DNA of 46,353 bases from a virus, in IMG/VR virus record IMGVR_UViG_3300021197_001349, positions 1 to 46,353 of that record; one strand, written 5' to 3'. Below the pieces are notes generated by a model that had not been told where the DNA came from, ran no database searches, and worked only from the letters and a program-made list of their open reading frames with translations. Position numbers and translations under genes: made by a program. The first letter of the stretch is position 1. Every line of letters begins with the position of its first letter. Positions 1 to 46,353 of the stretch are shown here, piece after piece.

Positions 1-60
1 GGGTTGGGTGGGTTGGGGGGTGGGGTCTGTGGTTGTTTCTGTGGGGGGGGGGTGTGTGGT
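1..60 (+). other. G-rich low-complexity tract with G-quadruplex pattern
   Basis: The first 60 bases are almost only G and T on the plus strand. Bases 1-20 hold four G-runs of three or more with loops of 1-2 bases, the canonical G-quadruplex pattern, and an 11-G run follows at 43-52. No gene start is visible. On the minus strand the frame at 1-90 is open and would encode a Thr/Pro-rich stretch that is in frame with the gene cut by the right edge if the molecule is circular. An assembly artefact at a contig end is also possible. Confidence 0.6.
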
Positions 61-85
61 GGGGGCGGGGGACGTGCCCGCCCCC
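61..85 (-). terminator. GC-rich intercistronic hairpin after the left-most gene
   Basis: A 9-bp perfect GC stem (61-69 with 77-85) and a 7-base loop sit directly after the stop of the left-most minus-strand gene. No U-run follows, so it is either an mRNA-stabilising or processing hairpin or a weak terminator. It is the same type as the hairpins at 7692 and 10259. Confidence 0.5.
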
Positions 86-92
86 CTTGGGT

Positions 93-440
93 TCAGGCTT
101 CGGTGACAGTGACGGGAACGCCCGCGGTGACGTTGTGGAAGTCCGAGGACAACTTGCTCCAAGGCTGCACGAATCGAGTGACGGTCCGTCGCGTGTTCTC
201 GTAGTGACGGATCGTCGCGTCGCCACCGGAGAACTCTGACTCGAAGATCGCATCGACGTCGATGGTGTACTTGAAGCAACCCGAGCCGAGGTCAGCGACG
301 TCGGTGACGACGCCCTCCATGCAGTCCGCGGATCCCTTCCAGTCAAAGGAGCGGACGCGGTGCCCGACCTTCGCGATGTCGAGGATGGTGGGCAGGTCGA
401 ACGAGCGAGCGGTGATTGCGTTGTTGGTTGCGTTGGTCAT
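93..440 (-). CDS. small accessory protein of unknown function (115 aa)
   Basis: The function is not recognised. The protein starts MTNATNN, the Thr/Asn-rich opening shared by several small accessory genes here, and continues as a compact mixed protein with Gly-Val-Val turns around residues 43-60, which suggests a small beta-rich fold. The start at 440 is supported by the shared ribosome site CTCAAGGA about 9 bases upstream. It is the second gene of the unit driven by the promoter at 707-741 and lies just downstream of the 58-aa gene. It ends close to the left edge. Confidence 0.75.
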   Translation of the reverse strand: MTNATNNAITARSFDLPTILDIAKVGHRVRSFDWKGSADCMEGVVTDVADLGSGCFKYTIDVDAIFESEFSGGDATIRHYENTRRTVTRFVQPWSKLSSDFHNVTAGVPVTVTEA

Positions 441-483
441 GGCTGGGTTCCTTGAGTTCGAGGTTGGTCGTGGTGGTCGTGGT

Positions 484-660
484 TCAGAACATGATGTCGT
501 GGGCGACTTCTTCGGTCGGGGCGACGTCGTCGAAGAGTCCGAGTTCGAGGCAGGCGTTGAGCCATTCTTTGCCGGGGAGTCGGTTGCCGTTCTCGTCGGT
601 GAGGCGGGCGGCGATCTCGGTCTCGGTCAGGTTCTTGTTGTTGTTGGTTGCGTTGTTCAT
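484..660 (-). CDS. small accessory protein, MNNATNNN start (58 aa)
   Basis: A 58-aa acidic protein of unknown function. The frame is open further upstream, but the start at 660 is chosen because it follows the promoter, leader hairpin and CTCAAGGAAC ribosome site common to the accessory units. The upstream extension would be translated from the promoter itself. The N-terminus MNNATNNNKN is nearly that of the gene starting at 33388 while the rest is unrelated. Residues about 12-45 look like a short helical fold with a Gly-Asn-Arg-Leu turn. Confidence 0.75.
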   Translation of the reverse strand: MNNATNNNKNLTETEIAARLTDENGNRLPGKEWLNACLELGLFDDVAPTEEVAHDIMF

Positions 661-741
661 TGGTCGGTTCCTTGAGGTTGTGAGCCGCGTGGCTCGTTGC
701 TTTGATGTGTGAAGTATGACCGCACTTGACCACTTGGTCAA
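661..741 (-). promoter_or_regulatory. accessory promoter module P1 with full palindromic operator
   Basis: Minus-strand promoter: -35 TTGACC (741-736), 17-bp spacer, -10 CATACT (718-713). The operator TTGACCAAGTGGTCAA (726-741) covers the -35 box. The leader contains the conserved word CATCAAAGCAACG, a hairpin GAGCC-ACGC-GGCTC (682-695) and the ribosome site CTCAAGGAAC. It is one of eight copies. Confidence 0.85.
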
Positions 742-773
742 CTGCCTTGATCGACTAATTGCTCATTTGGTCA

Positions 774-803
774 AAAAGAGCCCCTCCCGGTGTCGGGAGG
801 GGC
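774..803 (-). terminator. rho-independent terminator of the replication operon
   Basis: A perfect 10-bp GC stem (780-789 with 794-803), a GTGT loop and, on the minus strand, a following CTTTTT tract. It lies directly after the primase-helicase stop. Short A-runs on both sides would let it act in both directions. Confidence 0.85.
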
Positions 804-813
804 GAAACTTTTT

Positions 814-3453
814 TCAGAACGGGATCTCGGTGGTGGGCTCTTCAGCATCGAAGTCGTCGTTGTAGATCTGCGAAGCCTTCTCCCAGACCCAGCCGTAGAC
901 GATCGACTGCTTCCCGCTGCGGTGCCGGGTCGGGCGGCCGGTCGTATCCACCCGCACCCGCTTCGGTCGGTTGCCGTTTGCACTTGGAACTTCGATCGGC
1001 ATCAGGACGCCGCGGCCGAGCAACTTGCCGCGAGCGATCGAGATGCACTTGCGAGCGTTCGCCGCTGCGCTGTACTGCTCGTTCGGGTTCCAGAGTTCCG
1101 CGTCCTCCATCACCTTCACGATCTCCATCGACGAGATCTCCGACACGGCTTCGCCGACCACCTTGCGACCTTCCGCTTGCAGGTAACCGCTGACCGCTTG
1201 CACGATGTCGCTCGCTTCTTCCGCTTCGGCATCGGCAACAGGACGACGCTCGATGATGTCGGCCGCGAGTTTGTCCGGATCCGAATCCGGCACACGCGAC
1301 AGGACGTCACGCTGCCACGCACCCCAGCGGTCGCGGTGCTTCCTGTCGATCACGCCTTGCGACGGTTGACGCAACAAGTCGAGAAGATCCGAGATCAACT
1401 GCATCCGGTTCTCGTTGATGAAGTCCTGCGCCCACTCGACGAAGTCGCCGACGCGGGGCTGACCGAGTTTGATAATCACCGCACGCTGCGCGAGGTCGCG
1501 GGTCATTTCCGGCATGTTGAACGTGATGAGGAACGTGGCGTCGTTCGGACGCTTGACCGTGCCGACGAACAACTTGTGCCCGGTGAGGTTCTCGCTGGTC
1601 ACCGCGGCCTCGATCGCTGCGCCGCCGAACTTGCCCTTCACGTTGTCGAACAGGAACACCCGCGAGAGCCAGTCATCGGAAGACATGATCCGCTTCGAGA
1701 TCGACTGCCAGTTGTCTTCGTAGTCGAGCGGAGCAGCCCCGCCCCAGACGCGGCCGATTGCTTTCGCGGTCTCGGTCTTGCCGGATCCCTGCCCGTGGTC
1801 CGATGCGATCACGAACACCGGACGCGCACCGGGAGGGCCTCCCCAGCCCGGAGTCATCAACGCCGCGAGGATCAACTTTCGATCGGTCTCGGTCGCCGGG
1901 TTCAACGCCGCGAGGAACTCGTTCAGTTTCTCCCCGGTCGGCTTCGGCAGTTCGACGGGGAGGTAATAGATCCCCGGCCTCGGTGGCACGTGCGGCAGTT
2001 CAGAGATCGAGTCATACGCGGGGGTGATGTTGTCCTTGATCCACTTGAAGTACTCGGTTTTGGTCACCGCGGAAAGCGTGTCGCCGAGTTCGCTTTCGCA
2101 GTCGCCGCGAGCCCATCGAACCGTTGCCCGGTCGTGCAGCAGGGCGAACAGATCGTTCGCGTCGAAAAGTGACCAAATCTCGGGGCCGTCTTCGGTCTGC
2201 TTCACCGCGAATGGTCCGGTCGCCTTCGACCGCCGCGGCCACCCGCCGAGGGCCTCGCTCATATCGCGCCCCACTTGGTCGATGGTCTTGTACACAGTGA
2301 CCACTCGACGTCGGCCGTTGTCCATCACCACCCGCGTCGCGACGTTCGACACGTGGGGCCGATCTCGGGGATCAGCGGGGAGCCCGTCAAGCCGCGGAGA
2401 CTGGTCAGGGAGGTCAGGGGTCTCAGAGGGGGCCGACGGCACCGGAACCGGCGGAACGTCCGGGAGAGGGCCCTCTCCGGCCTCCCCCGGACTGCTCCCG
2501 CCTCGGTCCCCGTTCAGATCAGCCATCAGGTCCGCCATTGACACCTCGGGCCCGATGGCTCGGATGGTCGGGCTCGCAGGGCGGGCGTACCCGGAGCGGA
2601 CGGTCCGCTCGGCTTCACGAGGGTCGAGACCGTCACGATCGACGGCCAGACTGACCAAACGATTCAACGCATCCTCGACGGGGTAGTTGTTCGCGTTGAA
2701 GTCCAACGCGGCAGCGATCAGTCGATTGTTCCGCTCGCCCTCGGGCGTGGGCTCGTGCAGGAACTTCAGCGTCGTCATGTTGAGATGCTGGTCGTCGGGA
2801 GCGATGTTCGCATCCGGAGCGATGAACTCGAACGATGCGACTTCGTCACGTTGCACACCTGCATCGGTGTACACGTCGAACGATACGTTCGACTTCACGA
2901 TGCGGCACGCTGCTCCTCGTTTGTGGTTGAAGGTTCCCGGCAGTCGCATGATGCGACCGGGGTTCTTGATGCTCTTGTCACTCGACAGCGTACGGATGAG
3001 CCACGCCTGCACGCCTCGCCACTCGTCAGCGTCTTCGATCGGTTGTCGGAGACACCAGTACGCATGGGTGCCCGTCGCTCTACCGCTTTCGATCAGGAGC
3101 GTCGGCGTTGCGATTCCTGCTTCGGTGATTCTTCGCATGGCCTCGACGAGATTGGCATCGTCAAAGTCAACGAACACGCTTCGAAAGTTTGCGACGTCTT
3201 GGTCAGTCCCCGCGCCCGTTGGACCGCTGCCGCTCTTGGAATGTCGAGGATTCGGGCCGACGTAACAAGCCCACGACGGACCGTTGTGCGCTTGCACCCA
3301 TTCAAGCACGGACTCGATGTCGCTCGCCTTGACGAACTGAGTGTGCCCGCCGCCCCTGCCCCGAAGGGCTCGAAGTTCGACCCAGTCTTCAGGCCGAAAA
3401 ATTGTATCGCAGAACTCAACGATGACGTCCTTGTCGATCGGATGTTCAGTCAC
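814..3453 (-). CDS. primase-helicase fusion protein (replication)
   Basis: Predicted replicative primase-helicase (879 aa from a GTG start). Residues 1-290 resemble an archaeo-eukaryotic-type primase/prim-pol domain: VFVDFDD (93-99) supplies candidate metal-binding acidic residues, followed by SGRATGTHAYW (123-133) and NPGRIMRLPG (164-173). A Pro/Gly-rich linker spans about 316-365. The C-terminal half carries a P-loop GQGSGKT (554-560) and a Walker B-like LFDN (601-604), as in phage superfamily 3-like/AAA+ helicases. The GTG at 3453 overlaps the helicase stop (GTGA) and has AAGGGAG upstream. A longer ATG start at 3522 would overlap the helicase by 73 bases. It is last in the operon and followed by a strong terminator. 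The fold assignment comes from motifs only. Confidence 0.85.
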   Translation of the reverse strand: MTEHPIDKDVIVEFCDTIFRPEDWVELRALRGRGGGHTQFVKASDIESVLEWVQAHNGPSWACYVGPNPRHSKSGSGPTGAGTDQDVANFRSVFVDFDDANLVEAMRRITEAGIATPTLLIESGRATGTHAYWCLRQPIEDADEWRGVQAWLIRTLSSDKSIKNPGRIMRLPGTFNHKRGAACRIVKSNVSFDVYTDAGVQRDEVASFEFIAPDANIAPDDQHLNMTTLKFLHEPTPEGERNNRLIAAALDFNANNYPVEDALNRLVSLAVDRDGLDPREAERTVRSGYARPASPTIRAIGPEVSMADLMADLNGDRGGSSPGEAGEGPLPDVPPVPVPSAPSETPDLPDQSPRLDGLPADPRDRPHVSNVATRVVMDNGRRRVVTVYKTIDQVGRDMSEALGGWPRRSKATGPFAVKQTEDGPEIWSLFDANDLFALLHDRATVRWARGDCESELGDTLSAVTKTEYFKWIKDNITPAYDSISELPHVPPRPGIYYLPVELPKPTGEKLNEFLAALNPATETDRKLILAALMTPGWGGPPGARPVFVIASDHGQGSGKTETAKAIGRVWGGAAPLDYEDNWQSISKRIMSSDDWLSRVFLFDNVKGKFGGAAIEAAVTSENLTGHKLFVGTVKRPNDATFLITFNMPEMTRDLAQRAVIIKLGQPRVGDFVEWAQDFINENRMQLISDLLDLLRQPSQGVIDRKHRDRWGAWQRDVLSRVPDSDPDKLAADIIERRPVADAEAEEASDIVQAVSGYLQAEGRKVVGEAVSEISSMEIVKVMEDAELWNPNEQYSAAANARKCISIARGKLLGRGVLMPIEVPSANGNRPKRVRVDTTGRPTRHRSGKQSIVYGWVWEKASQIYNDDFDAEEPTTEIPF

Positions 3454-6189: not shown

Positions 6190-6683
6190 CTGCACCCCCG
6201 AACTTTTTCGTGAGCATCGACCCGAGCAGCACCTGCACGGGTATCGCGTACTGGCGTGGTGGAAAACTCGTCGCTTTCGATTTGGTCAAAGCGAAGCAGT
6301 CGAAGAAGATCGCACCGCACGATCGAGCGATTCGATTTGGTGAAGTCATACGCTCGCGAGTGAATGACCAAATAGGCGAAGCGTCCGCGGCGTTTGCCGT
6401 CGAAGTTCCCGGCGGGCAGGGGAAAATGCACTCGCGGGGTTTGGTCACGCTCGGGCTCGCGGTTGGTGCGATTGCTGCGACCTTGATGACGCGCGGCGAG
6501 GTCGAGTTGATCCCGGTGACCAAATGGTCGCGGCTCTTCGGAGGCAAGTGCATCTCGAAGGACGCGCGTGCGGATCTGGTCGCGGAGATGTTCCCGGCGT
6601 ACGACCGAGCGGCGGACAAGGGCCTCGACATCGCTGACGCGATCGGGCTTGGTGCGTGGCGTCTTGGTCTGTTCCGCGCATAG
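6183..6683 (+). CDS. RuvC-like Holliday-junction resolvase/nuclease
   Basis: A RuvC/RNase H-fold nuclease of about 166 aa. The acidic catalytic set is visible: Asp in VSIDPSSTCTG (D13), Glu in AVEVPGGQGK (E74) and the pair in GLDIADAIGLGAW (D149/D152). The known family role is cutting branched DNA before packaging. The start is uncertain: TTG at 6183 has no clear ribosome site and overlaps the divergent promoter, and GTG at 6210 (VSIDPS) would remove 9 residues. It is one of only three plus-strand genes. Three copies of the 9-mer ATTTGGTCA/TGACCAAAT fall inside it. Confidence 0.85.
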   Translation: MSTAPPNFFVSIDPSSTCTGIAYWRGGKLVAFDLVKAKQSKKIAPHDRAIRFGEVIRSRVNDQIGEASAAFAVEVPGGQGKMHSRGLVTLGLAVGAIAATLMTRGEVELIPVTKWSRLFGGKCISKDARADLVAEMFPAYDRAADKGLDIADAIGLGAWRLGLFRA

Positions 6684-9334: not shown

Positions 9335-9413
9335 TTGGTCGTTCCTTGAGTTGGGGGCGTGTTGCCCGTTGCTTTGATGGGTGGAGTATGACACCGATTG
9401 ACCAAATGGTCAA
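9335..9413 (-). promoter_or_regulatory. accessory promoter module P4 with the best palindromic operator
   Basis: -35 TTGACC (9413-9408), 17-bp spacer, -10 CATACT (9390-9385). Operator TTGACCATTTGGTCAA (9398-9413) consists of two opposed TGACCA half-sites and contains the genome-wide 9-mer. Hairpin GGGC-AACAC-GCCC (9355-9367), ribosome site CTCAAGGAAC. Confidence 0.85.
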
Positions 9414-10718: not shown

Positions 10719-11264
10719 TCACTGCCCCCACAACTTTTTGACGTTCCCGTTCGAATCCATCAGTCGGGTGATCCCGTCGCGTCCGCGTTGGCACGTGCCG
10801 GGGGCACCGGGCTCGTCAGCGACTCGCTTGCCCCAGTGACCAAATGGCATCCGCTCCTCCGCACTGGTACACGCGAACAAGTGGAACTGGTTGCATTCGT
10901 CCATCAGTCGCGACTCCGCGGGGAACAACTCCACCGCTTCGAACTCGGGGCCGAGGATCTGGTTCTTGATGTCCTGCATTTCTCTCCAGTCGTGCCGCGG
11001 CGTCGAACACAATGGGCGAATGGAGATGTGCCACATGCAGTTGTCCGGGCCGTGGGCCTGAAGGAAGACGCGGTATCTCGGTGACTCGAAGACTCGCTGC
11101 GCCTTCTCTTTTCGATACTGCTCCTTCGCTGATGCGCGAGTCATTCCGTCGGCCATACGGGCCGCGATGAAATCCTTCACGGGCTGCTTGCGGGAACCGT
11201 TCCACTCCTCGGTGATCTCGACGAGTTTGCCCGCGGCTTCGGTGGGGGTGAACGTCTCGTTCAT
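10719..11264 (-). CDS. DUF7694-like phage protein (181 aa)
   Basis: The C-terminal part resembles the DUF7694 type of phage proteins: MWHISIRP, then HDWREMQDIKNQILGPE, then EAVELFPAESRLMDECNQFHLFA, a strongly conserved pattern of unknown function. The N-terminal 60 residues are helical (TPTEAAGKLVEITEEWNG). Two ATG codons stand in tandem; the second (11264) is better spaced from GGAGGT. It is the last gene of the P6 unit and overlaps the previous gene. The family call is from memory of the motif. Confidence 0.75.
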   Translation of the reverse strand: MNETFTPTEAAGKLVEITEEWNGSRKQPVKDFIAARMADGMTRASAKEQYRKEKAQRVFESPRYRVFLQAHGPDNCMWHISIRPLCSTPRHDWREMQDIKNQILGPEFEAVELFPAESRLMDECNQFHLFACTSAEERMPFGHWGKRVADEPGAPGTCQRGRDGITRLMDSNGNVKKLWGQ

Positions 11265-11954: not shown

Positions 11955-12000
11955 CCCATTCAGCAAAAGAATCCGAAAAAAGTTTCGGGGCCTGATTTGG

Positions 12001-14146: not shown

Positions 14147-14150
14147 TTGG

Positions 14151-28023: not shown

Positions 28024-28027
28024 TTGG

Positions 28028-30420: not shown

Positions 30421-30527
30421 AGTTTTGAACCTTTGCTTCTTGTGTGAGTGTCGAACGGAAGAACGATTCTCACGCAACCATCCCGGTCACGTCGGGCATC
30501 CCACCCGCATCGCGTGAACTGACCAAA

Positions 30528-31429: not shown

Positions 31430-31496
31430 AGAACGTGGTACGCCTAAATGATACCGCGGAATCTGACCAAATGTCCGACTGCTCGGATGTTTTCGG

Positions 31497-33834: not shown

Positions 33835-36396
33835 TCAATCCAACAGCCTTCCTTCAATCGCCGGACTTCTCAAAACGTCATCGGTGTACTTGCGACTGAA
33901 AAACGTACCTCGGGAACGCAAAAAGTCAACAGAGAACTCGAACATCTCGCGGTCGGCGGACAAGAGTAGCATCGGATCGTGGTACATCTGCTCGATCGAC
34001 ATGGTCGCGACCTCGTTCCCGTAGACATACCGCTCCCCGGTCACGACGGTGTCCCCAAACTTGGGGTCTCTGCCGATCGGCTTGTGGTCCTTACCGGGAA
34101 ACACTTTCGTCCCGACCCTCTTGTTTCTGAGTTCGTAAACCTTGCCGCAATACGGATTGAAAAATTCATCCTTCCATGCGACCTCTGTCTTGTCGTACCC
34201 ACTGTTTCCCGTGAGTTTCCGAAGGGTCTCTTGTGACTCTCCCCTTGCACGTGCTGCACGGATGCGACGGTTCAAGAACGCACGAGAAGACGCGAGATGC
34301 GCCTCGCTGAAGTCTTCGATGCGATGAACGAACTCATGGACCCAAGTTTTCGCACCGTCAGCCGGTGCCATGTTCAACGTGCCATCGAGGCTGCAACTTG
34401 CACGCTGGTGCGTCTTCAACCGTTTCGCCCTCGCGGCCCGACAAGCATCGTCTGCCGTGTCACGGTGAACCACCTTCTGCAACCACTCCTTCGCCTTCAT
34501 CCATTGCCCCTTCATGTCGTACGCCTCGTCCGCTTTGAAGCGAACGCCTGCGAGGGTCAAGTCAGAGCCGCGGCTGGCTTTGTCCAAGAACAACATCTCG
34601 TGGATATCGTCCCTGAGTTGCGATGTGAGTGCGTCTCTTCGTGCCCGTACCACGTTCAATTCGTCAACGATTGCACCGATTCTTCGGCCCTCTTCCGTTG
34701 CGTTTTTCCAGCCGGGGTGGACCACTTCCTCCATCCACCTCGAAAATGCCGCTTCCTGAGCCTCCTGCATTTCTTTGTTTCGTGCGATTGCCTCCGGACG
34801 GAGGCGGATGCCATCGTCGGCGTTCTCGCGGAAGAACTTTTTCTTAGCCTCGACAAGATCCTCCCACTCTTTGCGAAGTGGATGATTCATCGCCGCATCG
34901 CTGTCCATGTACAGGTCGGTCAACTCGAACTCGCGGCTTCTGTTGGCTTGGTATTTCGTCCAAAGTTCATCATGCCGCTTTCTGGCCGTTTCCAACTCTG
35001 CAAGTTTCGCCCCGTGTCGTCGCTCCACTTCCGCCCGCAACTCTGCGCCCGTCATCTCCGACGTCGGCTTGCTTGAAGTCTGCGGTGCGGGTGCAGGCGG
35101 CGTCGGCTTCTCCGTCACCTTCTTCGTGACCTTCTTCGTGACCTTCTTCTTCGTCTTCTTGCGGACGACCTTCTTCTTGCCCCGCGTGCTGAGACGGCCA
35201 GCGATGCCACCAACGCCGCCGGACTTCGTGCCTGCAACCACCGCCTTCTCGAACGCGATCAGGTCGTCGAGCGACAACGACTTCGGCGGGAACGTGCCGT
35301 AGTTCACGAACCGAGACAGGTGCAGACGATCGTTCCGGAACACCTGCGCACGACGACGACCCAGCACCGAGTTCTGGAAGTCCGGCGTCTGCGTCTTGAG
35401 CCACGAGTTGTATGTGGCTTTCGCAGGCACCGCACCGTTCATCGACGCACGCAACTGATTCTCGGTCGCCGGGCTCTTCAACTTCGCGAAGGCGTCCGTC
35501 TTGAACTCCTTGCCGAGTTCGTCCCACGACTTGGTGATCGGCACCGTGGTCGAGCGGCAGTTCATGTGCAGCGGCGGACGCGGACCCTCGGTCGGCTTGA
35601 AGACCTGCCCGTCGAGACCCGCACAAATGTCCGTCGTCCGGGCGTCGAGCGTCGCGACGTACTGCACGCCCTTGATGACGTCGGTGTTCTCTTCGTATGT
35701 CAGTTCCCGAGCCTTGTTTGACACGTGCGTCACCTGAGTACGCACCAGTGTCTCCGCGTTCCGCTTCGTCGTGCCGAAGACGCCGTCCGTGTACCCGGAT
35801 CGCTTGGTGCCGGTGATGCGACGGATGATCTTCTGCGTCGGTTCGCCGGTCGTCAGCCCGAGGTTCACTTGACGCGAGATCTCCGCTTGCGTCGATTCGC
35901 CGAGTTCCTTGTACCAGCGGGGGATCAGTTTGCCCTCGACCGGCGTGTTCCGGACCACCGCTCGCACCGTCTGAAGGTTCGGCAGCCGAGCGTCATAGTT
36001 GAACGGCAGAGCGTCCCGCAACGAATCGCCCGCGAACTCGGCTTCCGCGTATCCGATTTTGGTCAGTTGCTCGGTGATCCGCTTCGACGTGAACTTCATC
36101 CCGCCGCGAACCGCCCCGAGCGTCTCGTCCATCATGTCCCGGTAGTATTGCGTGGTCCACGGCCCACGGTCGCCGCCCAGACGCCTCGCTCGGCCCAGAC
36201 GCCTGCGGAGCGTCTTCTGGACGTCAGGGATCACCTCGTTGTTGAGGTAACGAGCGACGGCGTTGACCTCGGTCTGCTTGAGGCTTTCCAGAAGCATCGC
36301 GTGCCGGACCCCACGGTTGAACAGGTGACCGTTGACCCTTCGCAGGGCCATCGAGGTATCGACGTTCGGGATCGCACGCTGAACCGTCGGCGGCAT
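33835..36396 (-). CDS. Mu F-like head morphogenesis protein fused to a zinc-metalloprotease domain (853 aa)
   Basis: Residues 1-290 match the Mu gpF/SPP1 gp7 head morphogenesis family (RNAETLVRTQVTHVSNKARE, LDARTTDICAGLDGQ, PPLHMNCRSTT). A Lys-rich linker spans 407-430, followed by about 200 residues of charged coiled coil. The C-terminal 170 residues carry HEFVH (687-691), the HExxH zinc-binding motif of zincin proteases, with KTEVAWKDEF supplying a possible third ligand. The protein is about twice the length of plain F-like proteins. The start is at a TGA-CCAA-ATG junction. The protease may act in head maturation or be injected with DNA; this is inference. Confidence 0.85.
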   Translation of the reverse strand: MPPTVQRAIPNVDTSMALRRVNGHLFNRGVRHAMLLESLKQTEVNAVARYLNNEVIPDVQKTLRRRLGRARRLGGDRGPWTTQYYRDMMDETLGAVRGGMKFTSKRITEQLTKIGYAEAEFAGDSLRDALPFNYDARLPNLQTVRAVVRNTPVEGKLIPRWYKELGESTQAEISRQVNLGLTTGEPTQKIIRRITGTKRSGYTDGVFGTTKRNAETLVRTQVTHVSNKARELTYEENTDVIKGVQYVATLDARTTDICAGLDGQVFKPTEGPRPPLHMNCRSTTVPITKSWDELGKEFKTDAFAKLKSPATENQLRASMNGAVPAKATYNSWLKTQTPDFQNSVLGRRRAQVFRNDRLHLSRFVNYGTFPPKSLSLDDLIAFEKAVVAGTKSGGVGGIAGRLSTRGKKKVVRKKTKKKVTKKVTKKVTEKPTPPAPAPQTSSKPTSEMTGAELRAEVERRHGAKLAELETARKRHDELWTKYQANRSREFELTDLYMDSDAAMNHPLRKEWEDLVEAKKKFFRENADDGIRLRPEAIARNKEMQEAQEAAFSRWMEEVVHPGWKNATEEGRRIGAIVDELNVVRARRDALTSQLRDDIHEMLFLDKASRGSDLTLAGVRFKADEAYDMKGQWMKAKEWLQKVVHRDTADDACRAARAKRLKTHQRASCSLDGTLNMAPADGAKTWVHEFVHRIEDFSEAHLASSRAFLNRRIRAARARGESQETLRKLTGNSGYDKTEVAWKDEFFNPYCGKVYELRNKRVGTKVFPGKDHKPIGRDPKFGDTVVTGERYVYGNEVATMSIEQMYHDPMLLLSADREMFEFSVDFLRSRGTFFSRKYTDDVLRSPAIEGRLLD

Positions 36397-36400
36397 TTGG

Positions 36401-37306
36401 TCAACCTCCCCCTGAGATTTCGAACTCGTTCATCCGCTCCAAGACCGGAATCACGTCCTCGCAGTCCTTGCGGAACTGCCGCGAAGCCATCGCGGCCAAC
36501 AGCCGCTCGACTTCGTCCTCGCTCCCGGAGTGGCTTGCCAGCGGGCAGTCACCGATCGCCTGTGCAGGCAGACCCATCATCGCCGTCTCGTACAGCCCCG
36601 TCGAGTTGATCGCGAACGTGCCGCGACAAGTCATGATCTGCTCGATCAGAGTCGAGTCGTCCGGGTCATTGAACTCGACACCGCGAGCCTCGCACAACCT
36701 TCGCCAATCGTCCCGCTCCTTGTCGAACGGATGCGGGCGAAACGAGATTTGGTCAACCCCGAACTGTGCTTCGGCGTCGAGCAAAACGTCCTCGACCGTT
36801 TGGTGATCGGAAGACGCCACGATCTGCGAGTCACGCATCAGTTGACCAAGTACGAGAATCTTGCCGTTCTGCTGATGACGACGACGACGAGGCGGGTTCC
36901 AGTCCTCGGGCCAATACTCGTCGCGGAGTTCGTCGAGTGCCCGGTACTCCGGTTCCCCGACCCAGTCGAGACTGTCAACGCACAACGACGAGTCGCCAGC
37001 GATCCCGTTGTGATCGAAACCGAAGTGGTCACGCTGCGGCATCCAACCCTGCTCGACCGTCAACGTCGCGAGACCCAAGCGGCGACGCAAGTTCAGGATA
37101 TACCTCGCGTCCGGCGTGGTGCCGTTCCACAAGACCATGTTCTGCGCACAACGAAACACCTTGACGTGCGGAATCGGCATCCGATCAAGGGCGAGGAAAC
37201 TCCAAGACATCCGGCTGCACGCGGTCGAAAGAATTTGGATCAAAGCCTTCTGGTCAGGATGATCCCAAGCGTGCGATCGCCAGAAAATGAGTTCACCTCT
37301 TGCCAC
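36401..37306 (-). CDS. capsule-synthesis-like glycosyltransferase (KpsS/KpsC type) (301 aa)
   Basis: Resembles the capsular polysaccharide synthesis family (KpsC/KpsS-like sugar transferases): TVEQGWMPQ (83-91), SFRPHP (188-193) and INSTGLYETAMMGLPA (233-248) match the conserved His-Pro and Ser-Glu-Gly motifs. In bacteria such enzymes build the lipid-linked Kdo base of capsules. Here it lies between the portal/dioxygenase and head genes. The start is GTG at 37306, overlapping the preceding small gene. It may decorate the virion or alter the host surface; neither can be read from the sequence. Confidence 0.75.
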   Translation of the reverse strand: MARGELIFWRSHAWDHPDQKALIQILSTACSRMSWSFLALDRMPIPHVKVFRCAQNMVLWNGTTPDARYILNLRRRLGLATLTVEQGWMPQRDHFGFDHNGIAGDSSLCVDSLDWVGEPEYRALDELRDEYWPEDWNPPRRRRHQQNGKILVLGQLMRDSQIVASSDHQTVEDVLLDAEAQFGVDQISFRPHPFDKERDDWRRLCEARGVEFNDPDDSTLIEQIMTCRGTFAINSTGLYETAMMGLPAQAIGDCPLASHSGSEDEVERLLAAMASRQFRKDCEDVIPVLERMNEFEISGGG

Positions 37307-37407: not shown

Positions 37408-37989
37408 TCAACCAACCTTTCTTTCGAAGTCAACGTGCAGGATTGTCCGCTCACCGTCGCCGTGATTCCACGCGGAATGATGCAGGGAGTCGTCGAATAT
37501 CACGCACTGCCCCGTCTTTGACCAAATGAACGTCTCGTCCTCGACCATGATACCCGACCCCTCGGGCGGAACATCAAGAGCCACGTGCATCACCAGCGAG
37601 TCCGGGTTGAAGTGGCGGTGCGGGGCCAGCATGGATCCGGGAGGCATCTTCGAGACACCCACGAAGTTGATCGCCTTGAAGGAATCGAACCAACGAGTCA
37701 ATCCGGGGATCTGCTTCGGCAGCCTGCGAATCGCCGCCACGGCCTTCCGCTGCTCGGCGTTGGTCAATTTCGGACGCGGCTTTGTCTTTCGACGCACGAA
37801 GATACTGTCGCGGCGATAGACCATCGCCGTCAGCCACTCACCCGTCAGATGCTTCTCGTGATCCGCTGCGTACTGCATCCAGTGGAGATCGACCAACTTG
37901 AGTTCGTCCCAGACCCCTTCGGCACAACGCACCAGAGGGGAGAGCGACGCGAAGTCTTGAACGCTGAAGAATCGCTGTCGTTGGCTCAT
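37408..37989 (-). CDS. Asp/Asn beta-hydroxylase-like 2-oxoglutarate dioxygenase (193 aa)
   Basis: Matches the aspartyl/asparaginyl beta-hydroxylase family (Fe(II)/2-oxoglutarate dependent): LAPHRHFN (first iron His124), VMHVALDVP, IMVEDETFIW, IFDDSLHHSAWN (second His at 170 or 171) and ERTILHVDF (Arg181 for 2-oxoglutarate). The family hydroxylates protein Asp/Asn or, in LpxO, lipid A acyl chains. It starts with an ATGA overlap to the portal gene. A role in modifying virion proteins or host LPS is inferred. Confidence 0.88.
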   Translation of the reverse strand: MSQRQRFFSVQDFASLSPLVRCAEGVWDELKLVDLHWMQYAADHEKHLTGEWLTAMVYRRDSIFVRRKTKPRPKLTNAEQRKAVAAIRRLPKQIPGLTRWFDSFKAINFVGVSKMPPGSMLAPHRHFNPDSLVMHVALDVPPEGSGIMVEDETFIWSKTGQCVIFDDSLHHSAWNHGDGERTILHVDFERKVG

Positions 37990-39518
37990 TCATCTTCGTC
38001 CTCATTCGTGAAAGTATCGTCCTCGATCTCATCGTCATCGTCGTCAGCGTCGCCATCAGGCGGAGCCATCTGCGAAGCAATGACCAAATCAGCCGCCGCC
38101 AACTCTTCGAGTTCGGCCTCGATGTCGATCGTCTCGGAGAGCAGGCCCCGACGCTTGCACTCACGCAAGAACGTCTCGGCAGTGATTTGGTTAGACACCC
38201 GCATCTGGAGCAGGGCCTTCACGTCATCGGACGCACGGAGAGACACGCCGAAGTCGTTGTTGATGTCGATCCCGAAGTCATCGGGCAACGGCACATTCAT
38301 CCACTCCGCGGCGTGCAGGTACGCATCCCGCAGGGTGTTCTCGACCGATCGAATCCACGACTGCACCGCACTATCGACTCGCGACTCGTCCATCGCACGA
38401 GCGGTCGCCGTCTGACCCCCGGTCTTCTGCATGAACGGCTGAAGCCCGAGGGCCTCCATTCGGCGTTCAAGTGCATCGAGATCCTTCTGCCCCGACTCGA
38501 TCGCCCTCCCGTTGTGTTCGACGTACTGCATTCGAGCGTCGGGGTTGTTGGAGTGGACCAACTGATTCGGGCCGATCGTCAACCCGTCCTCGATCTCCTC
38601 GTCAGTGAACCCTGAAGCGAACAGGATGCCGACCCGAGCGAACCGCAGGACGTTCCGCTGGTCGCTCATCGACTGCCAGTGGGCGAGGTTCAGGTGGGCG
38701 AGATCGAGCATCGGAGGCTTCGCCGTCAGGAGCCCGGTGCGGTGGGCGTAGCACGTCACCAACGGGATCTCGCCGAAGGAATGGGTTCCGCTGTCCGCCA
38801 GCGTGAACTCGTCCTCGTCGAACTCCTTCCGCCACACCTCGAACGTGTCCGGCGTGATCACCCGGACATACTCGACTTCGTGGTCGATGAAGTTGCCCTT
38901 CGGCTCGACTTGCGTCTGCTTGATTCGGATCTGCGTCAGGCGGTCGCGGCCGTTGGCCTGCTTTTCGCTCCGCCAGCCGATCAACGCCGTCGGCGACACG
39001 TGCATCATCGTCGGCCGGATCTGCCTCGCACGCTCGTCCGCCAGCGACTCGATCCCGTCGGTCTTCGGGAAGTCGATCAGGATGTGGCCGACGCCGTAAA
39101 CGCACAACGATCGGAACAGGTCGCGGCCGATCTGCGTCAGGTCGCGACCGCTCATATCGACGTCCTTCTCGATCAGGTCGAGCGGCTCGGGAACCTCACC
39201 CTGAACCGTCACCGGCTGCGAGAACGGCTTCGAGACCAACTTCTCGATCGTGTCCGCGAACCCGTTGAACAGGAACGAACGGTGCAGTCGATTGTCGTAC
39301 GCGATCGACGACTCGCGGGGCTCCTTGGGCAACCAAATGTTCCCCGCCGCCCGCATCGCGTCCGTGCCCGCGAGCAAGTCTTCGAGCAGCGGCCAGTTGG
39401 CGGCCATGTGGTCGTACTCGACGGAAGTGACGTGGACCTTGTCCTCAGTCTTCGTCGAGTGGCGGTCGCTCATATACCGGAGAGCGAAGTTTTTCTGTAC
39501 GCCTGTGTATGCACTCAT
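37986..39518 (-). CDS. portal protein, DUF4055 type (510 aa)
   Basis: Matches the DUF4055 family, the portal of many siphoviruses: WPLLEDLLAGTDAMRAAG, YDNRLHRSFLFNGFADTIEK and VSPTALIGWRSEK in the N-terminal half, and RMEALGLQPFMQKTGGQTAT later. The C-terminus is an acidic tail. Forms the DNA-entry ring bound by terminase. The start at 39518 overlaps the lipoprotein stop (ATGA), with AAGGA upstream; the longer frame to 39569 is unsupported. Confidence 0.9.
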   Translation of the reverse strand: MSAYTGVQKNFALRYMSDRHSTKTEDKVHVTSVEYDHMAANWPLLEDLLAGTDAMRAAGNIWLPKEPRESSIAYDNRLHRSFLFNGFADTIEKLVSKPFSQPVTVQGEVPEPLDLIEKDVDMSGRDLTQIGRDLFRSLCVYGVGHILIDFPKTDGIESLADERARQIRPTMMHVSPTALIGWRSEKQANGRDRLTQIRIKQTQVEPKGNFIDHEVEYVRVITPDTFEVWRKEFDEDEFTLADSGTHSFGEIPLVTCYAHRTGLLTAKPPMLDLAHLNLAHWQSMSDQRNVLRFARVGILFASGFTDEEIEDGLTIGPNQLVHSNNPDARMQYVEHNGRAIESGQKDLDALERRMEALGLQPFMQKTGGQTATARAMDESRVDSAVQSWIRSVENTLRDAYLHAAEWMNVPLPDDFGIDINNDFGVSLRASDDVKALLQMRVSNQITAETFLRECKRRGLLSETIDIEAELEELAAADLVIASQMAPPDGDADDDDDEIEDDTFTNEDEDE

Positions 39519-39980: not shown

Positions 39981-39990
39981 TCTGATTTGG

Positions 39991-40197
39991 TCATTCGCCG
40001 GTGGCCTGCTCAGAAGTCACGTCGTTGTCGCGGGCGAAGATCGCCGCGAGCGACGGGAACACCACGATCAGGGCCTCCCAGAGACCGTTGACCGTGGACG
40101 CATCAGCGTCGCCGCTGAAGATCGCCTTCACTGCGAGAGCCGCCGCTGCGACCAACCCCGCAACCCCGAGAACCGTCGTCTTCCATGATGCCTTCAT
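39991..40197 (-). CDS. holin-like small membrane protein (68 aa)
   Basis: A two-helix membrane protein: VLGVAGLVAAAALAVKAIF (9-27) and LWEALIVVFPSLAAIFA (39-55), then ARDNDVTSEQ. The FARDNxVTSE ending is seen in many small phage holin-type proteins of terminase-proximal lysis modules. The stop codon is inside a copy of the genome-wide 9-mer. Holin function is inferred from topology and family feel. Confidence 0.75.
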   Translation of the reverse strand: MKASWKTTVLGVAGLVAAAALAVKAIFSGDADASTVNGLWEALIVVFPSLAAIFARDNDVTSEQATGE

Positions 40198-40526: not shown

Positions 40527-41858
40527 TCATCCAAGAACGCTCGTCGTCCGTGTGATCGGGCGAGCCCCCGCAACGGGATGCTTCTTCACCACGTAGTATC
40601 CCAGAGCATCCGAGAGGTGGGTGAGTTTCGGATCGCTTTTCTTGTCGATCTCACCCGCACCACCGTCAAGCACACGAACGCCTTCCAAGTCCTTCACCAC
40701 GTTGGGGGCCTTGTTCGGATCGAGCAGCATGTGGATCGTGCCGTCCGCCGTCTTGAGCCGTGCGTTCATCGCGTTCACCCTTGCACGCTCGCGGGGGTTC
40801 GCTCGGTCAACGCGGAACTTCACCCTCGACCCGAACACCGGGCGGAGTTCGGCCTTGATCAGATCCCAGTCCGAGCCCGCCACCGCCGACGTCGATCTCG
40901 CCCCGCCGGTCGCGTCCCCGTAGCAAAGGATGTCGGTGGGGTGGCTGCCCCAGTCCTCGATCAACTTGCGGCACACCGCGGGCGTGTTCGAGTTGTTCGG
41001 GATGTACACCTCGCCGATCACCTGCGAGATCCCCTCGCCGCTGCGTGCGTCCGGCACCTTCTCCTGAACCACCACCGCCACGCCGGGCGACACGTTGAAG
41101 TCGAAGCAGAAGATCAGCGGGCGGCCGGGGTCGTAGTCGCAACTGACCAAATGACTCGCCTCGTCGAACGTGTAATACGCTCGCCCGGTGAACGTGACGA
41201 ACGAGGCCCGATATTCCTGATTGAAGGTCAACTCGTCGAGGTCGCGACGGGCCGACTCGATCTCCTTCTTGTCGAGGATCTCTTCGGAGGTCCACGTGAA
41301 CGTCGCCCAGTCACCGCTGTCGTCCGCCTGTGCCGCCTTGTACAGGTCGTAGTAGTGGTTCCGCCCCTCGGGCACCCCGATGAAGTCGCACCAGCCCAGA
41401 CGGTCGGAGAGGGCCGGACGGAGGTGGTCGCCCCAGACGTGGCCCTTCATGTTCGCGTACTCGTCCAGAACCGCCCCGTCGATCGACCGACCCTCGATCC
41501 GCTCCGGTGCATCGAGCCCGACGACCGTGATCTCCGCCCCGTTGACCAACGTGATCGTCAGCGTGCCCTCGCTCGGTGGAGCCGCGAGCAACTGCTTGGG
41601 GATCATCGACTTGAGGTCACGCCAGAAGATTCGCTTGGCCTGCGAGTGGGTCGGTGCCCCCATGATGAACCAAGCGTCCTCCGCGTGGCACGAATTCAGG
41701 GCCTTCCGGATCATCCGCCGCTTGGCGCACTCGGTCTTCCCCGACCGCCGCCCCGCCGGGACGACCACGAAGCGGGAGGGGCAGTTCAGGTATTCGATTT
41801 GGAGGTCATGCGGGCGGAGAGCCTTCCACGTCGCCAGTCCGGTCGTCTTGGTTGCCAT
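40527..41858 (-). CDS. terL: terminase large subunit (443 aa)
   Basis: DNA-packaging ATPase and nuclease. ATPase: Walker A GRRSGKT (36-42) and Walker B AVLDEY (129-134). Nuclease: FCFDFN with Asp253, LCYGDATGG (311-319) and a C-terminal HLSDALGY acidic site. Length is typical. The start at 41858 lies inside the small terminase gene (53-base overlap) with GAGG upstream, a usual arrangement. Confidence 0.95.
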   Translation of the reverse strand: MATKTTGLATWKALRPHDLQIEYLNCPSRFVVVPAGRRSGKTECAKRRMIRKALNSCHAEDAWFIMGAPTHSQAKRIFWRDLKSMIPKQLLAAPPSEGTLTITLVNGAEITVVGLDAPERIEGRSIDGAVLDEYANMKGHVWGDHLRPALSDRLGWCDFIGVPEGRNHYYDLYKAAQADDSGDWATFTWTSEEILDKKEIESARRDLDELTFNQEYRASFVTFTGRAYYTFDEASHLVSCDYDPGRPLIFCFDFNVSPGVAVVVQEKVPDARSGEGISQVIGEVYIPNNSNTPAVCRKLIEDWGSHPTDILCYGDATGGARSTSAVAGSDWDLIKAELRPVFGSRVKFRVDRANPRERARVNAMNARLKTADGTIHMLLDPNKAPNVVKDLEGVRVLDGGAGEIDKKSDPKLTHLSDALGYYVVKKHPVAGARPITRTTSVLG

Positions 41859-42420
41859 CGGGGCCCTCGATCATGGTTTCGCGGAGGAACTCCCGGACGC
41901 GGGCGGCGATCTCCTCGGGGGTTCCGTTGCTCTGGTCCTCGGTCACGAGCCCGAGCAACTTGTTCAGAGCGTCCTGTGCCTGCATCTTCTCGCGGGCGGT
42001 CGAGTTCAGGTCGGCGATGACCCCCCGGTAGAGCGAGACCGCAGCGAGACGATGGTCCTCGATCGTCATCGCGGCAGCCTCATCCGGATCCACCGGCTCG
42101 TCGTTGAACTGCCCGGTCACGCGGCCGTCGAGTCGCTGCATGATCTCTGCGAACTGCGGCCCCTTGCCGTCAAACGCCGCCACGAAGCCCGAGAGCAGCA
42201 TGATGTCGCCCAGATCCAGCCCGCCGATCTCCTCAGCCTTGAGCCCCAGCCCACGGGCAACCTCGACCGCGAACGGAAAGTCCGTGGTCGGCGATTCGAC
42301 GAGCCGCTTGAGCCGCTCCCGCATCGTCTTCCACGGAGGCCGCCCGTTGGGGTTCCCCGACTGCCCCGGCTTCCACTGCCACGGCTTGAGATGGTCCGTC
42401 TTGCGGTACTCGTCCGCCAT
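41806..42420 (-). CDS. terminase small subunit-like protein, DUF5681 (204 aa)
   Basis: The N-terminal motif WKPGQSGNPNGRP is the signature of DUF5681 proteins, which lie before large terminases and are taken as small subunits. A helical body and an acidic C-terminus follow. The start at 42420 is in GAGGTGACCAAATG, so the ribosome site and the genome-wide 9-mer overlap. It precedes and overlaps the large terminase gene. Confidence 0.82.
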   Translation of the reverse strand: MADEYRKTDHLKPWQWKPGQSGNPNGRPPWKTMRERLKRLVESPTTDFPFAVEVARGLGLKAEEIGGLDLGDIMLLSGFVAAFDGKGPQFAEIMQRLDGRVTGQFNDEPVDPDEAAAMTIEDHRLAAVSLYRGVIADLNSTAREKMQAQDALNKLLGLVTEDQSNGTPEEIAARVREFLRETMIEGPDGNQDDRTGDVEGSPPA

Positions 42421-42429
42421 TTGGTCACC

Positions 42430-42705
42430 TCACCATTTGGTCTTGTTGGCCCAGTACGCCGCGGACATCTTGCCCTTGGCGATGTTCTTGGCGTGCCTCG
42501 CCTTGAACGACGAGCGACGTGCCGCCGCCCCCTTCGACTCGCCCTTCTTGGCCGGGGAGCCCGAGACGCCCTGTTGACCAAATCGGATCAACTTGACCTT
42601 CTCACCCTCCTTCGCCAGCACCGCGTGCGACTTCTTGGGGTGGTTCGGGGTCCGCTTCGGCTTGTTGAAGCCCGAGAACTTTTCACCACTGCGTTCGATC
42701 GTCAT
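42430..42705 (-). CDS. small basic conserved phage protein, DUF6321-like (91 aa)
   Basis: Resembles a conserved phage protein with the pattern HPKKSHAV, KLIRFGQQGV and SFKARHAKNIAKGKMSAAYW near terminase genes. Very basic, probably nucleic-acid binding; the role in packaging is unknown. Overlaps the preceding gene (ATGA). Confidence 0.8.
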   Translation of the reverse strand: MTIERSGEKFSGFNKPKRTPNHPKKSHAVLAKEGEKVKLIRFGQQGVSGSPAKKGESKGAAARRSSFKARHAKNIAKGKMSAAYWANKTKW

Positions 42706-42878
42706 CGAGACCCCTTCTTCTTGGTCGGTCGCTTCTTGGCGGTTTTGGCGGACGCCTTGAACGATGCCGCGGTCGGTGCCCCCTTCGAGCCCGCCTTCCT
42801 CATCTTCTCACCAGAGCCCGCCGCGATTCGCTTTCGCTTCGCGTTGATGTTTGCGTACAGTCCGGGTCGCTTCGCCAT
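42702..42878 (-). CDS. small basic conserved phage protein (58 aa)
   Basis: 58 aa starting MAKRPGLYANINAKRKRIAA, then GSGEKMRKAGSKGAPT and a Lys-rich end. This is a recurrent small protein beside terminase genes in marine and other phages. The ATG at 42878 is again in TGACCAAATG. Too short for most gene callers. Confidence 0.78.
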   Translation of the reverse strand: MAKRPGLYANINAKRKRIAAGSGEKMRKAGSKGAPTAASFKASAKTAKKRPTKKKGSR

Positions 42879-42885
42879 TTGGTCA

Positions 42886-44102: not shown

Positions 44103-44383
44103 CCAAACGACGCCGACGCATACCAATCGAAGACGAAACGAAGTATCCGCTCGAACGGATCGTGTGGGTGGACTCTTGCGAGCCGGGCGTGAACGCGGAA
44201 GTCGAACTGGACGGCGTGCCTGAAGTGCAGACGATTGTGCAGGTCGGTCATTTGGTCAAAGAGTGCGAGAACGCGGTCAGCATCGCCGGAGCGTGGAAAC
44301 CCGAACTCCGAACGCTTGATTACGTGATCACGATTCCCAAGGTCGCGATCGTCCAACGCGACAGGCTCTCGATCAAGCGATAG
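44099..44383 (+). CDS. small protein coupled to the phosphoesterase (94 aa)
   Basis: Unknown. An Arg-rich start (MTKRRRRIPIEDE), then a beta pattern (VNAEVELDGVPEVQTIVQVG, LDYVITIPKVAIVQRD). The ATG overlaps the phosphoesterase stop (ATGA). A bidirectional terminator follows. Confidence 0.72.
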   Translation: MTKRRRRIPIEDETKYPLERIVWVDSCEPGVNAEVELDGVPEVQTIVQVGHLVKECENAVSIAGAWKPELRTLDYVITIPKVAIVQRDRLSIKR

Positions 44384-44408
44384 ACTAAAGGTTCATCTCT
44401 TTCTCCTG

Positions 44409-44442
44409 CAACAACCCCCCAGCCTTGGCCGGGGGGTTGTTG
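44409..44442. terminator. bidirectional terminator between convergent units
   Basis: A perfect 12-bp stem CAACAACCCCCC (44409-44420) with GGGGGGTTGTTG (44431-44442) and a 10-base loop. It lies between the plus-strand pair and the minus-strand sigma-like gene. Confidence 0.8.
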
Positions 44443-44472
44443 TGTTCGGACCAGTGACCAAACCGGCCCAAC

Positions 44473-45003
44473 TCAAGGATCTCCGTAGAGTTCCGCCCAG
44501 ACTGCTCGTGCGGAGAGAACTCTTTGCCATGCGGCTTGTTTCGACCTTCCAATGGCGACCGAGATGAATTGTCGCTGAGGCAAACGGACGAGCAACTGCA
44601 AGGCGTCTTCTTGTTTCGGTGTCACTGATCCTAGCAGTTCTCGAACTTTCTCGCGGTCGAAGTTGGTGCGTTCTTTTCGCTCTGCGATTTGGTCAGGTTG
44701 CAAGTCTTCCGAGGGCGTGTCAATCTCAACCGGAACACTTTCACCGAAGTCCGACACGGGGAACTGGCGGGTCTTTCGAGTGGACAGTTTTCGACGGTGA
44801 TCAATGAAGCGACGGAAGGCGACGAGTGCCAACCAATTCGCGAGTCCGGGGGAGTCCTCGATCGACTGCTCGAAGGCAAGAACCACCGCGTCGCTCAGGA
44901 AGTCGTCGATCTCTTGCGAAGGCACTTGATGCACATGGTGCAGTCGCCACCTTGCAAGGATCAACGCCTTGTCCCATGCGACGGGTTCAGATCTCTTCGT
45001 CAT
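44473..45003 (-). CDS. sigma factor-like protein (ECF-type candidate, 176 aa)
   Basis: It resembles a small two-domain sigma factor. Residues 30-75 read as a region 2-like helix set (DDFLSDAVVLAFEQ, NWLALVAFRRFIDHRRK). A linker follows, and residues 121-172 read as region 4 with a helix-turn-helix (VTPKQEDALQLLVRLPQRQF, VAIGRSKQAAWQRVLSARAV). If active it could direct host RNA polymerase to phage promoters. It overlaps the upstream dockerin gene by 17 bases. The region 2 match is weak; another DNA-binding protein is possible. Confidence 0.65.
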   Translation of the reverse strand: MTKRSEPVAWDKALILARWRLHHVHQVPSQEIDDFLSDAVVLAFEQSIEDSPGLANWLALVAFRRFIDHRRKLSTRKTRQFPVSDFGESVPVEIDTPSEDLQPDQIAERKERTNFDREKVRELLGSVTPKQEDALQLLVRLPQRQFISVAIGRSKQAAWQRVLSARAVWAELYGDP

Positions 45004-45616
45004 CAGACGACTCGGACCACTGGCTGAACAGGATGCCGAGGTCGGTGCCGTTGACAGTTCCGTCGAAGTTGAGATCCGATCGAGGTTCGCTCGTTCCCCA
45101 GTCGCTCATCAGCACGCCTTGATCTTCTGCATCAACCCAACCGTCTGCGTTGATGTCTGCGATCATGTCCTTGTACCGAAGGATGACTTCCCAGTTGATG
45201 CTTTCGGTCAGTGTCGCGTTGCCACCGACTTCGAAAACGTAATCACGAACGATCCGGCACTTCTCTTCGTCCCAACAGAGGTCGGACCCCAGTTCGAAGA
45301 TCGGGACCATGTCCTGACCAATTCGCACGCTCTGCCGGTACTTCACGTTTCGCGTCGAGTTCGACCTGTTGGTGACTTGCGCATCACCGTCCATCGTGAA
45401 CGGTCCGGGCACGTCCGTGTCGGACGGCGTGAGGTAGTACACGACAAGTTCGCGGGTGTCGGTACTTGCTTCCGAAACGATCTGCAACATGCTGGTGACT
45501 TCGCCGTCCGGCCCGAAGACAGGAAGGCGAGTCGTCGTCATCGGAGTCAAGCGAGGGCTGCACGGCTCGGCGTCCTGCACGCCGATGACCGTCGCGAGTA
45601 GCACCGGGATCATCAT
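44987..45616 (-). CDS. secreted protein with dockerin type I repeats (209 aa)
   Basis: An N-terminal hydrophobic signal (MMIPVLLATVIGVQDA), a beta-rich middle with four Cys, and a C-terminal pair of dockerin calcium-binding repeats: DINADGWVDAEDQ (154-166) and DLNFDGTVNGTDLG (181-194), each ending in a W. Dockerins bind cohesins in extracellular complexes and are very common on secreted proteins of Planctomycetota. Here it may bind to the host surface or a virion fibre. It overlaps its two neighbours. Its function in a phage is unknown. Confidence 0.8.
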   Translation of the reverse strand: MMIPVLLATVIGVQDAEPCSPRLTPMTTTRLPVFGPDGEVTSMLQIVSEASTDTRELVVYYLTPSDTDVPGPFTMDGDAQVTNRSNSTRNVKYRQSVRIGQDMVPIFELGSDLCWDEEKCRIVRDYVFEVGGNATLTESINWEVILRYKDMIADINADGWVDAEDQGVLMSDWGTSEPRSDLNFDGTVNGTDLGILFSQWSESSDDEEI

Positions 45617-45816
45617 GGAGCCTCGTAGGTGATGGACTTCAGAGCGGTCGCCGACGCAGTGAGTTCGGTCGATGCCGCGACGAGCGCGTCGATCATGGCG
45701 TCGTCGACTGCGTTGCGTGCTTCGACGGTCGCGAACTTCTCGGCGAGTCCGCCGAGGATCTGGGCGATGCTCGCCATGTTGGATGCGATGCGGGCGTATT
45801 CAGAGACGCTTGACAT
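45613..45816 (-). CDS. small helical protein near the fibre genes (67 aa)
   Basis: Unknown. Ala-rich helices (YARIASNMASIAQILGGLAE, DAMIDALVAASTELTASATA) suggest a coiled coil or trimerisation domain. The ribosome site AAAGGAAC resembles the accessory CTCAAGGAAC. It overlaps the dockerin gene. Confidence 0.65.
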   Translation of the reverse strand: MSSVSEYARIASNMASIAQILGGLAEKFATVEARNAVDDAMIDALVAASTELTASATALKSITYEAP

Positions 45817-45834
45817 GAGTCGGTTCCTTTGGGG

Positions 45835-46353
45835 TTAGACATCGTCGATGTCGATGAGGGTGGTACGGCCTGAGATCTGCGAACCAATCTTTCCTTGATA
45901 CGAGATCCAGTCGATGTTCTGGTTGCAGTTTCCGGTGTGCGTTCCGGTGCCTCCTCCGACAAATGGGACGATGCAACTTGCAAACGTCATCGAACCAGTT
46001 CCAACGCTGGAGCCGTTGATGTAGAACGCAATATCCCAATTAGAATTGCCCGCGTTGTATTTCACATGGATGCCAAGGCGAATCCATGTGTCAACGTAGG
46101 AGGAGATCGGATAGGAACCCCCGAGATCGGTTGGACCCGGAACTCCGCCTTGGCCCGGCGTGGCACCGCCTCCGGTGTCCTTGATGCAAGTGAGGACATT
46201 TGTTTGCTCTAGGTCGATCGTAATCGAAGCCCAATCAAACGCCGAGTAGGTGTGTCCGGGGATCTGGTCGTTTGCATTGAGCGTTGCGATGCTATCGGCG
46301 ACTCCGAGACCAACCATCCCGGTTGTCGCGTTTGAGTCTACGAAGTAGAACCT
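45835..46353 (-). CDS. partial fibre/LamG-like protein, 5' end outside the window
   Basis: The frame is open to the right edge; the visible 172 residues lack a start. The texture is that of a LamG/concanavalin-like lectin domain: YSAFDWASITIDLEQ, DTWIRLGIHVKYNAG, NWDIAFYINGSSVGTG, and a Gly-rich loop with two Cys. Such domains decorate phage fibres and capsids. If the molecule is circular the frame continues into the Thr/Pro-rich frame of bases 1-90. Confidence 0.7.
   Translation of the reverse strand, partial: RFYFVDSNATTGMVGLGVADSIATLNANDQIPGHTYSAFDWASITIDLEQTNVLTCIKDTGGGATPGQGGVPGPTDLGGSYPISSYVDTWIRLGIHVKYNAGNSNWDIAFYINGSSVGTGSMTFASCIVPFVGGGTGTHTGNCNQNIDWISYQGKIGSQISGRTTLIDIDDV

Follow-up and report, generated by a model that had tools for sequence, protein, structure and literature searches.

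The window analysed here, the full 46,353 bases of IMG/VR virus record IMGVR_UViG_3300021197_001349, has a GC content of 60%, is classed by IMG/VR as lacking end repeats and carries nearly all of its genes on the minus strand. Besides portal, head morphogenesis, major head, tape measure, tail and terminase proteins, its genes specify a primase-polymerase (PrimPol) of the archaeo-eukaryotic primase (AEP) type, and the 9-mer TGACCAAAT (ATTTGGTCA on the opposite strand) is scattered over its entire length. This word and its possible relation to the PrimPol are the subject of the present analysis.

A scattered word and a PrimPol gene

By exact search, TGACCAAAT occurs 30 times, 17 times on the plus and 13 times on the minus strand (Table 1). 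An earlier sequence-only reading by eye had arrived at the same strand split and at about 30 copies, all of them listed correctly except one at 33652, which belongs at 33651. The expected count is 0.14, 0.28 or 1.2 under Markov models of order 2, 3 or 4 (Poisson -log10 P of 58, 49 and 30, respectively), and the word ranks first among all 9-mers of the window at each of these orders, i.e., it stays an outlier once composition is corrected for. Its core, TTTGGTCA, is found 40 times against 1.1 to 1.6 expected, which leaves about ten near copies where about nine had been claimed. A single-substitution scan revealed a nearly fixed GGTCA end and a permissive 5' A/T end, and the reversed but uncomplemented pattern has 0 occurrences in the window.

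Inside genes, copies lie sense and antisense and in all three phases, and 9 of the 30 are intergenic though the window is 92% coding; that copies lie in all frames inside genes and also between genes had been seen in the first reading. Because both orientations and all three phases are represented, no single codon pair accounts for the word, and an origin in a codon pair or a single reading frame, which that reading had named among the outcomes that would refute its claim, is ruled out. Start or stop codons are touched by 9 of the 30 copies (null 5.9%, P 4e-5), several of which read TGA-CCAA-ATG and thus bridge the stop of one gene and the start of the next. Relative to the dominant gene strand, 13 copies point with and 17 against it, which rules out a late or sigma-factor promoter as a general account.

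The proposed reader of the word is an AEP PrimPol by its catalytic motifs (VDFDD, ESGRATGTHAYW and RIMRLPGT) and its fold, with a C-terminal helicase-like region and an uncertain choice of start codon (the open reading frame, ORF, opens at 3522). It is most similar to the PrimPol of cyanophage S-2L both in sequence (phmmer E 1.4e-9 against the AEP domain 6zp9) and in fold (Foldseek top match 6zp9, E 8e-7, prob 1.00, for a structure model of moderate confidence with a mean pLDDT of 56), and it is of the S-2L-like, not the NrS-1-like, branch. A match to PriCT_1 (E 0.0035, below the curated cut-off) coincides with helices at residues 227-290 that are modelled with low to moderate confidence and may form a template-recognition domain. 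Searches for relatives using the window primase or capsid protein gave no matches.

Table 1. Positions of TGACCAAAT copies and of the PrimPol in the window
Feature	Position	Strand	Context
TGACCAAAT	765..773	-	intergenic
TGACCAAAT	2170..2178	+	
TGACCAAAT	6280..6288	-	
TGACCAAAT	6365..6373	+	
TGACCAAAT	6517..6525	+	
TGACCAAAT	9399..9407	+	within palindrome TTGACCAAATGGTCAA covering a promoter -35
TGACCAAAT	10837..10845	+	
TGACCAAAT	11995..12003	-	TGA of copy is stop codon of 12001-12318
TGACCAAAT	12304..12312	+	adjoins start codon of 12001-12318
TGACCAAAT	14145..14153	-	spans stop of 14151-17216 and start of 13451-14146
TGACCAAAT	17442..17450	-	
TGACCAAAT	19241..19249	+	
TGACCAAAT	22698..22706	+	
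TGACCAAAT	25172..25180	+	
TGACCAAAT	26125..26133	+	
TGACCAAAT	28022..28030	-	spans a stop and a start codon
TGACCAAAT	30520..30528	+	at stop of 30528-31322
TGACCAAAT	31464..31472	+	intergenic
TGACCAAAT	33651..33659	+	intergenic
TGACCAAAT	36395..36403	-	spans a stop and a start codon
TGACCAAAT	36747..36755	-	
TGACCAAAT	37519..37527	+	
TGACCAAAT	38081..38089	+	
TGACCAAAT	39985..39993	-	TGA of copy is stop codon of 39991-40197
TGACCAAAT	41144..41152	+	within terminase gene, antisense
TGACCAAAT	42419..42427	-	at a start codon
TGACCAAAT	42575..42583	+	
TGACCAAAT	42877..42885	-	at a start codon
TGACCAAAT	44250..44258	-	
TGACCAAAT	44687..44695	-	within sigma-factor-like gene
PrimPol	814..3453	-	AEP primase-polymerase with helicase-like C-terminal region; putative reader of TGACCAAAT
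Predicted helix bundle	2584..2775	-	at PriCT_1 position; candidate template-recognition domain

Related words in phages with NrS-1-like primases

As PMC8718748 reports after Zhu et al. 2017, the PrimPol of phage NrS-1 recognises the template sequence 5'-TTTGGTTA-3', and the same article describes GTGG and GTGA motifs as efficient. The window core TTTGGTCA differs from this site by a single mismatch. Pseudomonas phage NP1 came to light among named phages whose terminases are related, and further phages were found by their NrS-1-like primase sequences; 11 of the 12 phages tested that have such primases and no sign of a temperate lifestyle carry a scattered word of their own, either TGTGGTYA or TGTGGGCA. 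NP1 itself, whose primase gave matches to structures of the NrS-1 PrimPol (E about 1e-8), has 34 copies of TGACCACA (template-strand form TGTGGTCA) in 50 kb against 1.3 expected, and its relatives among the Queuovirinae share T[AG]ACCACA (41 copies in CAjan, 30+17 in 9g, 27+15 in MiCath and 33 in DoCa3), which reads TGTGGTYA on the template strand; the word found 41 times in CAjan is TGTGGTTA. These words contain GTGG and are strand-symmetric. The other word, TGTGGGCA, to which both also apply, is scattered in Ab26, Halfdan, phiAxp-1 and Langgrundblatt2, and the NrS-1 helix-bundle domain PF22763 is matched by the primases of NP1, CAjan, Ab26 and Halfdan. For two further phages the word was predicted before their sequences were read, TGTGGGCA for KP1 and TGTGGTYA for EC151, and proved to be the top word in both. 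No report of TGTGGTYA or TGTGGGCA words in phages was found in the literature searched.

Scans for PF09250, Toprim_2 and DnaG zinc ribbons served to class the primases of IMG/VR contigs. A word above a -log10 P threshold of 12 is present in 14 of 23 phages or contigs with AEP-type primases and in 1 of 17 with other or unclassified ones (Fisher 6e-4), a comparison that serves as a guide only since the phages are not independent, the primase of Nostoc phage A1 is unchecked and some contigs are fragments.

Same-strand copies of the scattered words are spaced more evenly than after shuffling of strand labels (P <= 0.0073) in NP1, 9g, Ab26, Halfdan, Langgrundblatt2, KP1, EC151 and Nostoc phages N1 and A1, which includes 7 of the 10 phages with NrS-1-like primases that were tested; in CAjan, MiCath and phiAxp-1, spacing is even compared to random positions but not compared to label shuffling. 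Orientation alternates beyond chance in most of the nine evenly spaced phages, a tendency not seen for ordinary 6-mers of the same genomes, and in six annotated phages the analogous words are not polarised relative to genes (94 sense, 118 antisense). Such an arrangement suits a function that is needed at intervals on each strand separately, such as priming, and not transcription.

By analogy with these cultured phages, we consider it on balance probable that TGACCAAAT/ATTTGGTCA words are template recognition sites of the phage's own PrimPol, and we favour this over a set of stoperators because it better explains the sequence of the word and the existence of related words. The enzyme would start primers where the template strand reads 5'-ATTTGGTCA-3', and the roughly 30 sites on both strands would offer one site per ca. 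2.5 to 3.7 kb per strand, so that each strand, as lagging-strand or restart template, would be supplied with start sites at useful intervals. The excess of the word, the presence of a PrimPol in the window, the related words in phages with PrimPol primases and the published NrS-1 site are established; recognition of the word by the window PrimPol, use of the sites in vivo and a role as Okazaki starts are inferred. Evenly poised in our judgement is the broader idea that many lytic PrimPol phages carry a genome-encoded grid of primer starts, regularly spaced and strand-alternating, whose word co-evolves with primase specificity and of which the window with ATTTGGTCA would be one instance.

Primase recognition sites are usually taken to be short, abundant trinucleotides. 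If our proposal is true, long primase words at even intervals on either strand would mean that Okazaki starts are positioned by the genome sequence, the template specificity of a PrimPol would be predictable from the genome sequence alone, and a genome-wide set of start sites would become testable at the bench in this virus of bacteria.

Contrary evidence and competing explanations

Several observations weigh against primase sites as the explanation. In the window itself, same-strand spacing is not significantly even (coefficient of variation 0.76, P 0.13-0.38) and orientation does not alternate significantly (17 runs vs 15.7); because of this, the support from spacing comes from the class and not from the window. 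The closest relatives of the window by terminase and portal, for which the sequence-only reading had proposed a search, show no excess of TGACCAAAT and instead carry another scattered word, TGACAAC (17 copies in contig L009, 9 in L010, 16 in L011, 12 in L089, 6 in L102 and 7 in L117, with about 1.4-3.9 expected in each), so the word evidently changes between relatives. The primase of these TGACAAC relatives is absent from the available contigs, and L090-L101 show no TGACAAC scatter. Proteus phage RS10pmA has a strong match to the NrS-1-type helix-bundle domain, and the word predicted for it is not there; likewise, no word is scattered in NrS-1 and Lactobacillus phage A2, both of which have integrase genes. 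S-2L has no scattered word either, and a search for PrimPols related to that of the window yielded 43 contigs; among these, 38 S-2L-like AEP loci were long enough for the word test, and not one exceeds a -log10 P of 8 (median at background; most window slices of comparable size would have been detected). A rule that an AEP implies a word has thus failed for the S-2L-like branch. Conversely, Escherichia phage T1, with a primase that has a T7-type zinc ribbon, carries 25 scattered copies of CTGAYTGGT (14/11) where none were predicted. The S-2L-like branch and T1 show that a PrimPol does not strictly entail a word, nor a word a PrimPol. CTG-containing words are found in T1, G031 and MW202657, all with DnaG-type primases, and two of these three are not evenly spaced.

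In favour of primase sites, TTGGTTT is in modest but consistent excess in the branch nearest to the window PrimPol (68 vs 29 over five contigs resembling Vibrio phage 104E43.1, and 45 vs 13 in 104E43.1 itself). In Nostoc phages N1 and A1, TGATTCCGGGG and TGACTCCGGGG, respectively, occur ca. 60 times each in 50 kb and alternate strongly in orientation, and the N1 primase is AEP-like by its motifs and a weak similarity to S-2L. N1 additionally contains GCGATCGC 33 times. Other dispersed words were seen in further terminase/portal relatives (TGA[AT][AC]AGT, TGAGTAAT, GTGACA[CT] and TGTAGAYA in contigs L034, L058, L151 and L060), in Pseudomonas phage YuA (CCTCGAA, 55 copies, 20/35, somewhat evenly spaced) and in contig L016, which encodes a PF09250 Prim-Pol (E 4e-44) and has AGCGCCCG and GAGCGCC.

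The sequence-only reading had likened the word to the stoperators of mycobacteriophage L5, i.e., asymmetric sites at promoters and gene borders where a bound repressor blocks transcription. Its proposal of a scattered, strand-independent recognition word is supported by our data, and the copy number, the copies between genes or at start and stop codons and the different word of close relatives, reminiscent of cluster A immunity groups, would all fit stoperators. We nevertheless regard them as unlikely, since the copies do not follow transcription in the window or, in their analogous forms, elsewhere, and Pfam and PHROGs scans of window proteins, which do not cover every ORF of a possibly incomplete record, recognised neither a repressor nor an integrase. 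The promoters bear on this question, too. The window has eight near-identical sigma70-like promoter-leader repeats on the minus strand (at 706, 8030, 8910, 9378, 10610, 11919, 32520 and 33434) that consist of TTGAC[AC] with an inverted repeat, N17, [GC]ATACT and ATCAAAGCAACG, mostly followed by a CTCAAGGAAC ribosome-binding stretch and ATG; they lie upstream of small genes, two of these inside the structural region. One copy and one near copy of the word overlap the -35 element of such promoters, and the copy within the "operator" proposed at 9398-9413 is indeed present, but this element is part of one of the eight repeats. Only two of them contain TGACCA, the other six having TTGACA and no word, and these early promoters are a repeat separate from scattered TGACCAAAT.

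Similarly unlikely, or slightly more so, is a Chi-like recombination hotspot that a phage helicase-nuclease would read strand-specifically in single-stranded DNA. Strand-specific, evenly spaced sites would fit, and a RecB/Cas4-like exonuclease and a helicase are annotated in most lytic phages with NrS-1-type primases, but NrS-1 has RecB and a helicase yet no scattered word, the window proteins include no recognised RecB-like nuclease, and the word is similar to a primase site that has been measured. Binding sites for a protein that packages or organises DNA, for example the small terminase subunit, appear quite improbable: they would agree with the genome-wide spread and with the relation of the window terminase to Nipunavirus terminases (35%), but leave unexplained the resemblance to a primase site and the strand alternation and even same-strand spacing of analogous phages, a pattern shared by the Nostoc phages with their different word. 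Boxes of another replication initiator are very improbable, because the apparent resemblance of TTAACCACA and TTGACCACA to the DnaA box TTATCCACA and the CCACA end common to some words do not extend to TGACCAAAT or the Nostoc word TGAYTCCGGGG, which lack the CACA end, and the hosts are diverse.

Among the remaining genes of the window are those for an SNF2/SF2-type helicase, a RuvC-like resolvase (on the plus strand) and Pam3 gp33/gp34-like proteins. A sigma-factor-like protein is encoded at 44473-45003 on the minus strand (PHROG 1740, E 8e-5; NCBIfam sigma70-ECF, E 1.5e-4, below cut-off), next to a dockerin-type repeat protein at 44987-45616 on the same strand (Pfam E 3e-4, below cut-off) that we take as a hint of a planctomycete-like host, the host itself not being established. 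The structural region includes an aspartyl/asparaginyl beta-hydroxylase domain at 37408-37989 (minus strand).

Comparison with known systems

Repeated elements have been described in several phage groups. The lytic siphophages T1, TLS and Stevie have intergenic repeats of 20-22 bp with unknown role (PMC11447400, PMC4319613), which differ from the window word in being longer, mostly intergenic and aligned with transcription and which are distinct from the T1 9-mer CTGAYTGGT. The stoperators of L5 and other cluster A phages resemble the window word in their 20-30 asymmetric copies throughout the genome, often at gene borders, and in the variation of the word between relatives, but they are about 13 bp long, mostly follow the direction of transcription and work with a repressor (PMC6550527, PMC9283540). 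In Nostoc cyanophages A-1 and N-1, 43 and 21 asymmetric motifs have been described, which are not consistently aligned with genes (PMC4916379): like the window word they are scattered and strand-symmetric, and they differ by one base between the two relatives (TGACTCCGGGG vs TGATTCCGGGG), of which N-1 has an AEP-like primase, whereas the word itself is another one, denser and strongly alternating in orientation. In NrS-1, finally, TTTGGTTA is not scattered but present as a single copy in an origin-like repeat stretch, the 373 bp directly after the primase gene that hold five of the seven T[GT]TGGTYA sites of this phage; what NrS-1 and the window have in common is the TTTGGT-A core on the template strand together with a phage-encoded AEP PrimPol.

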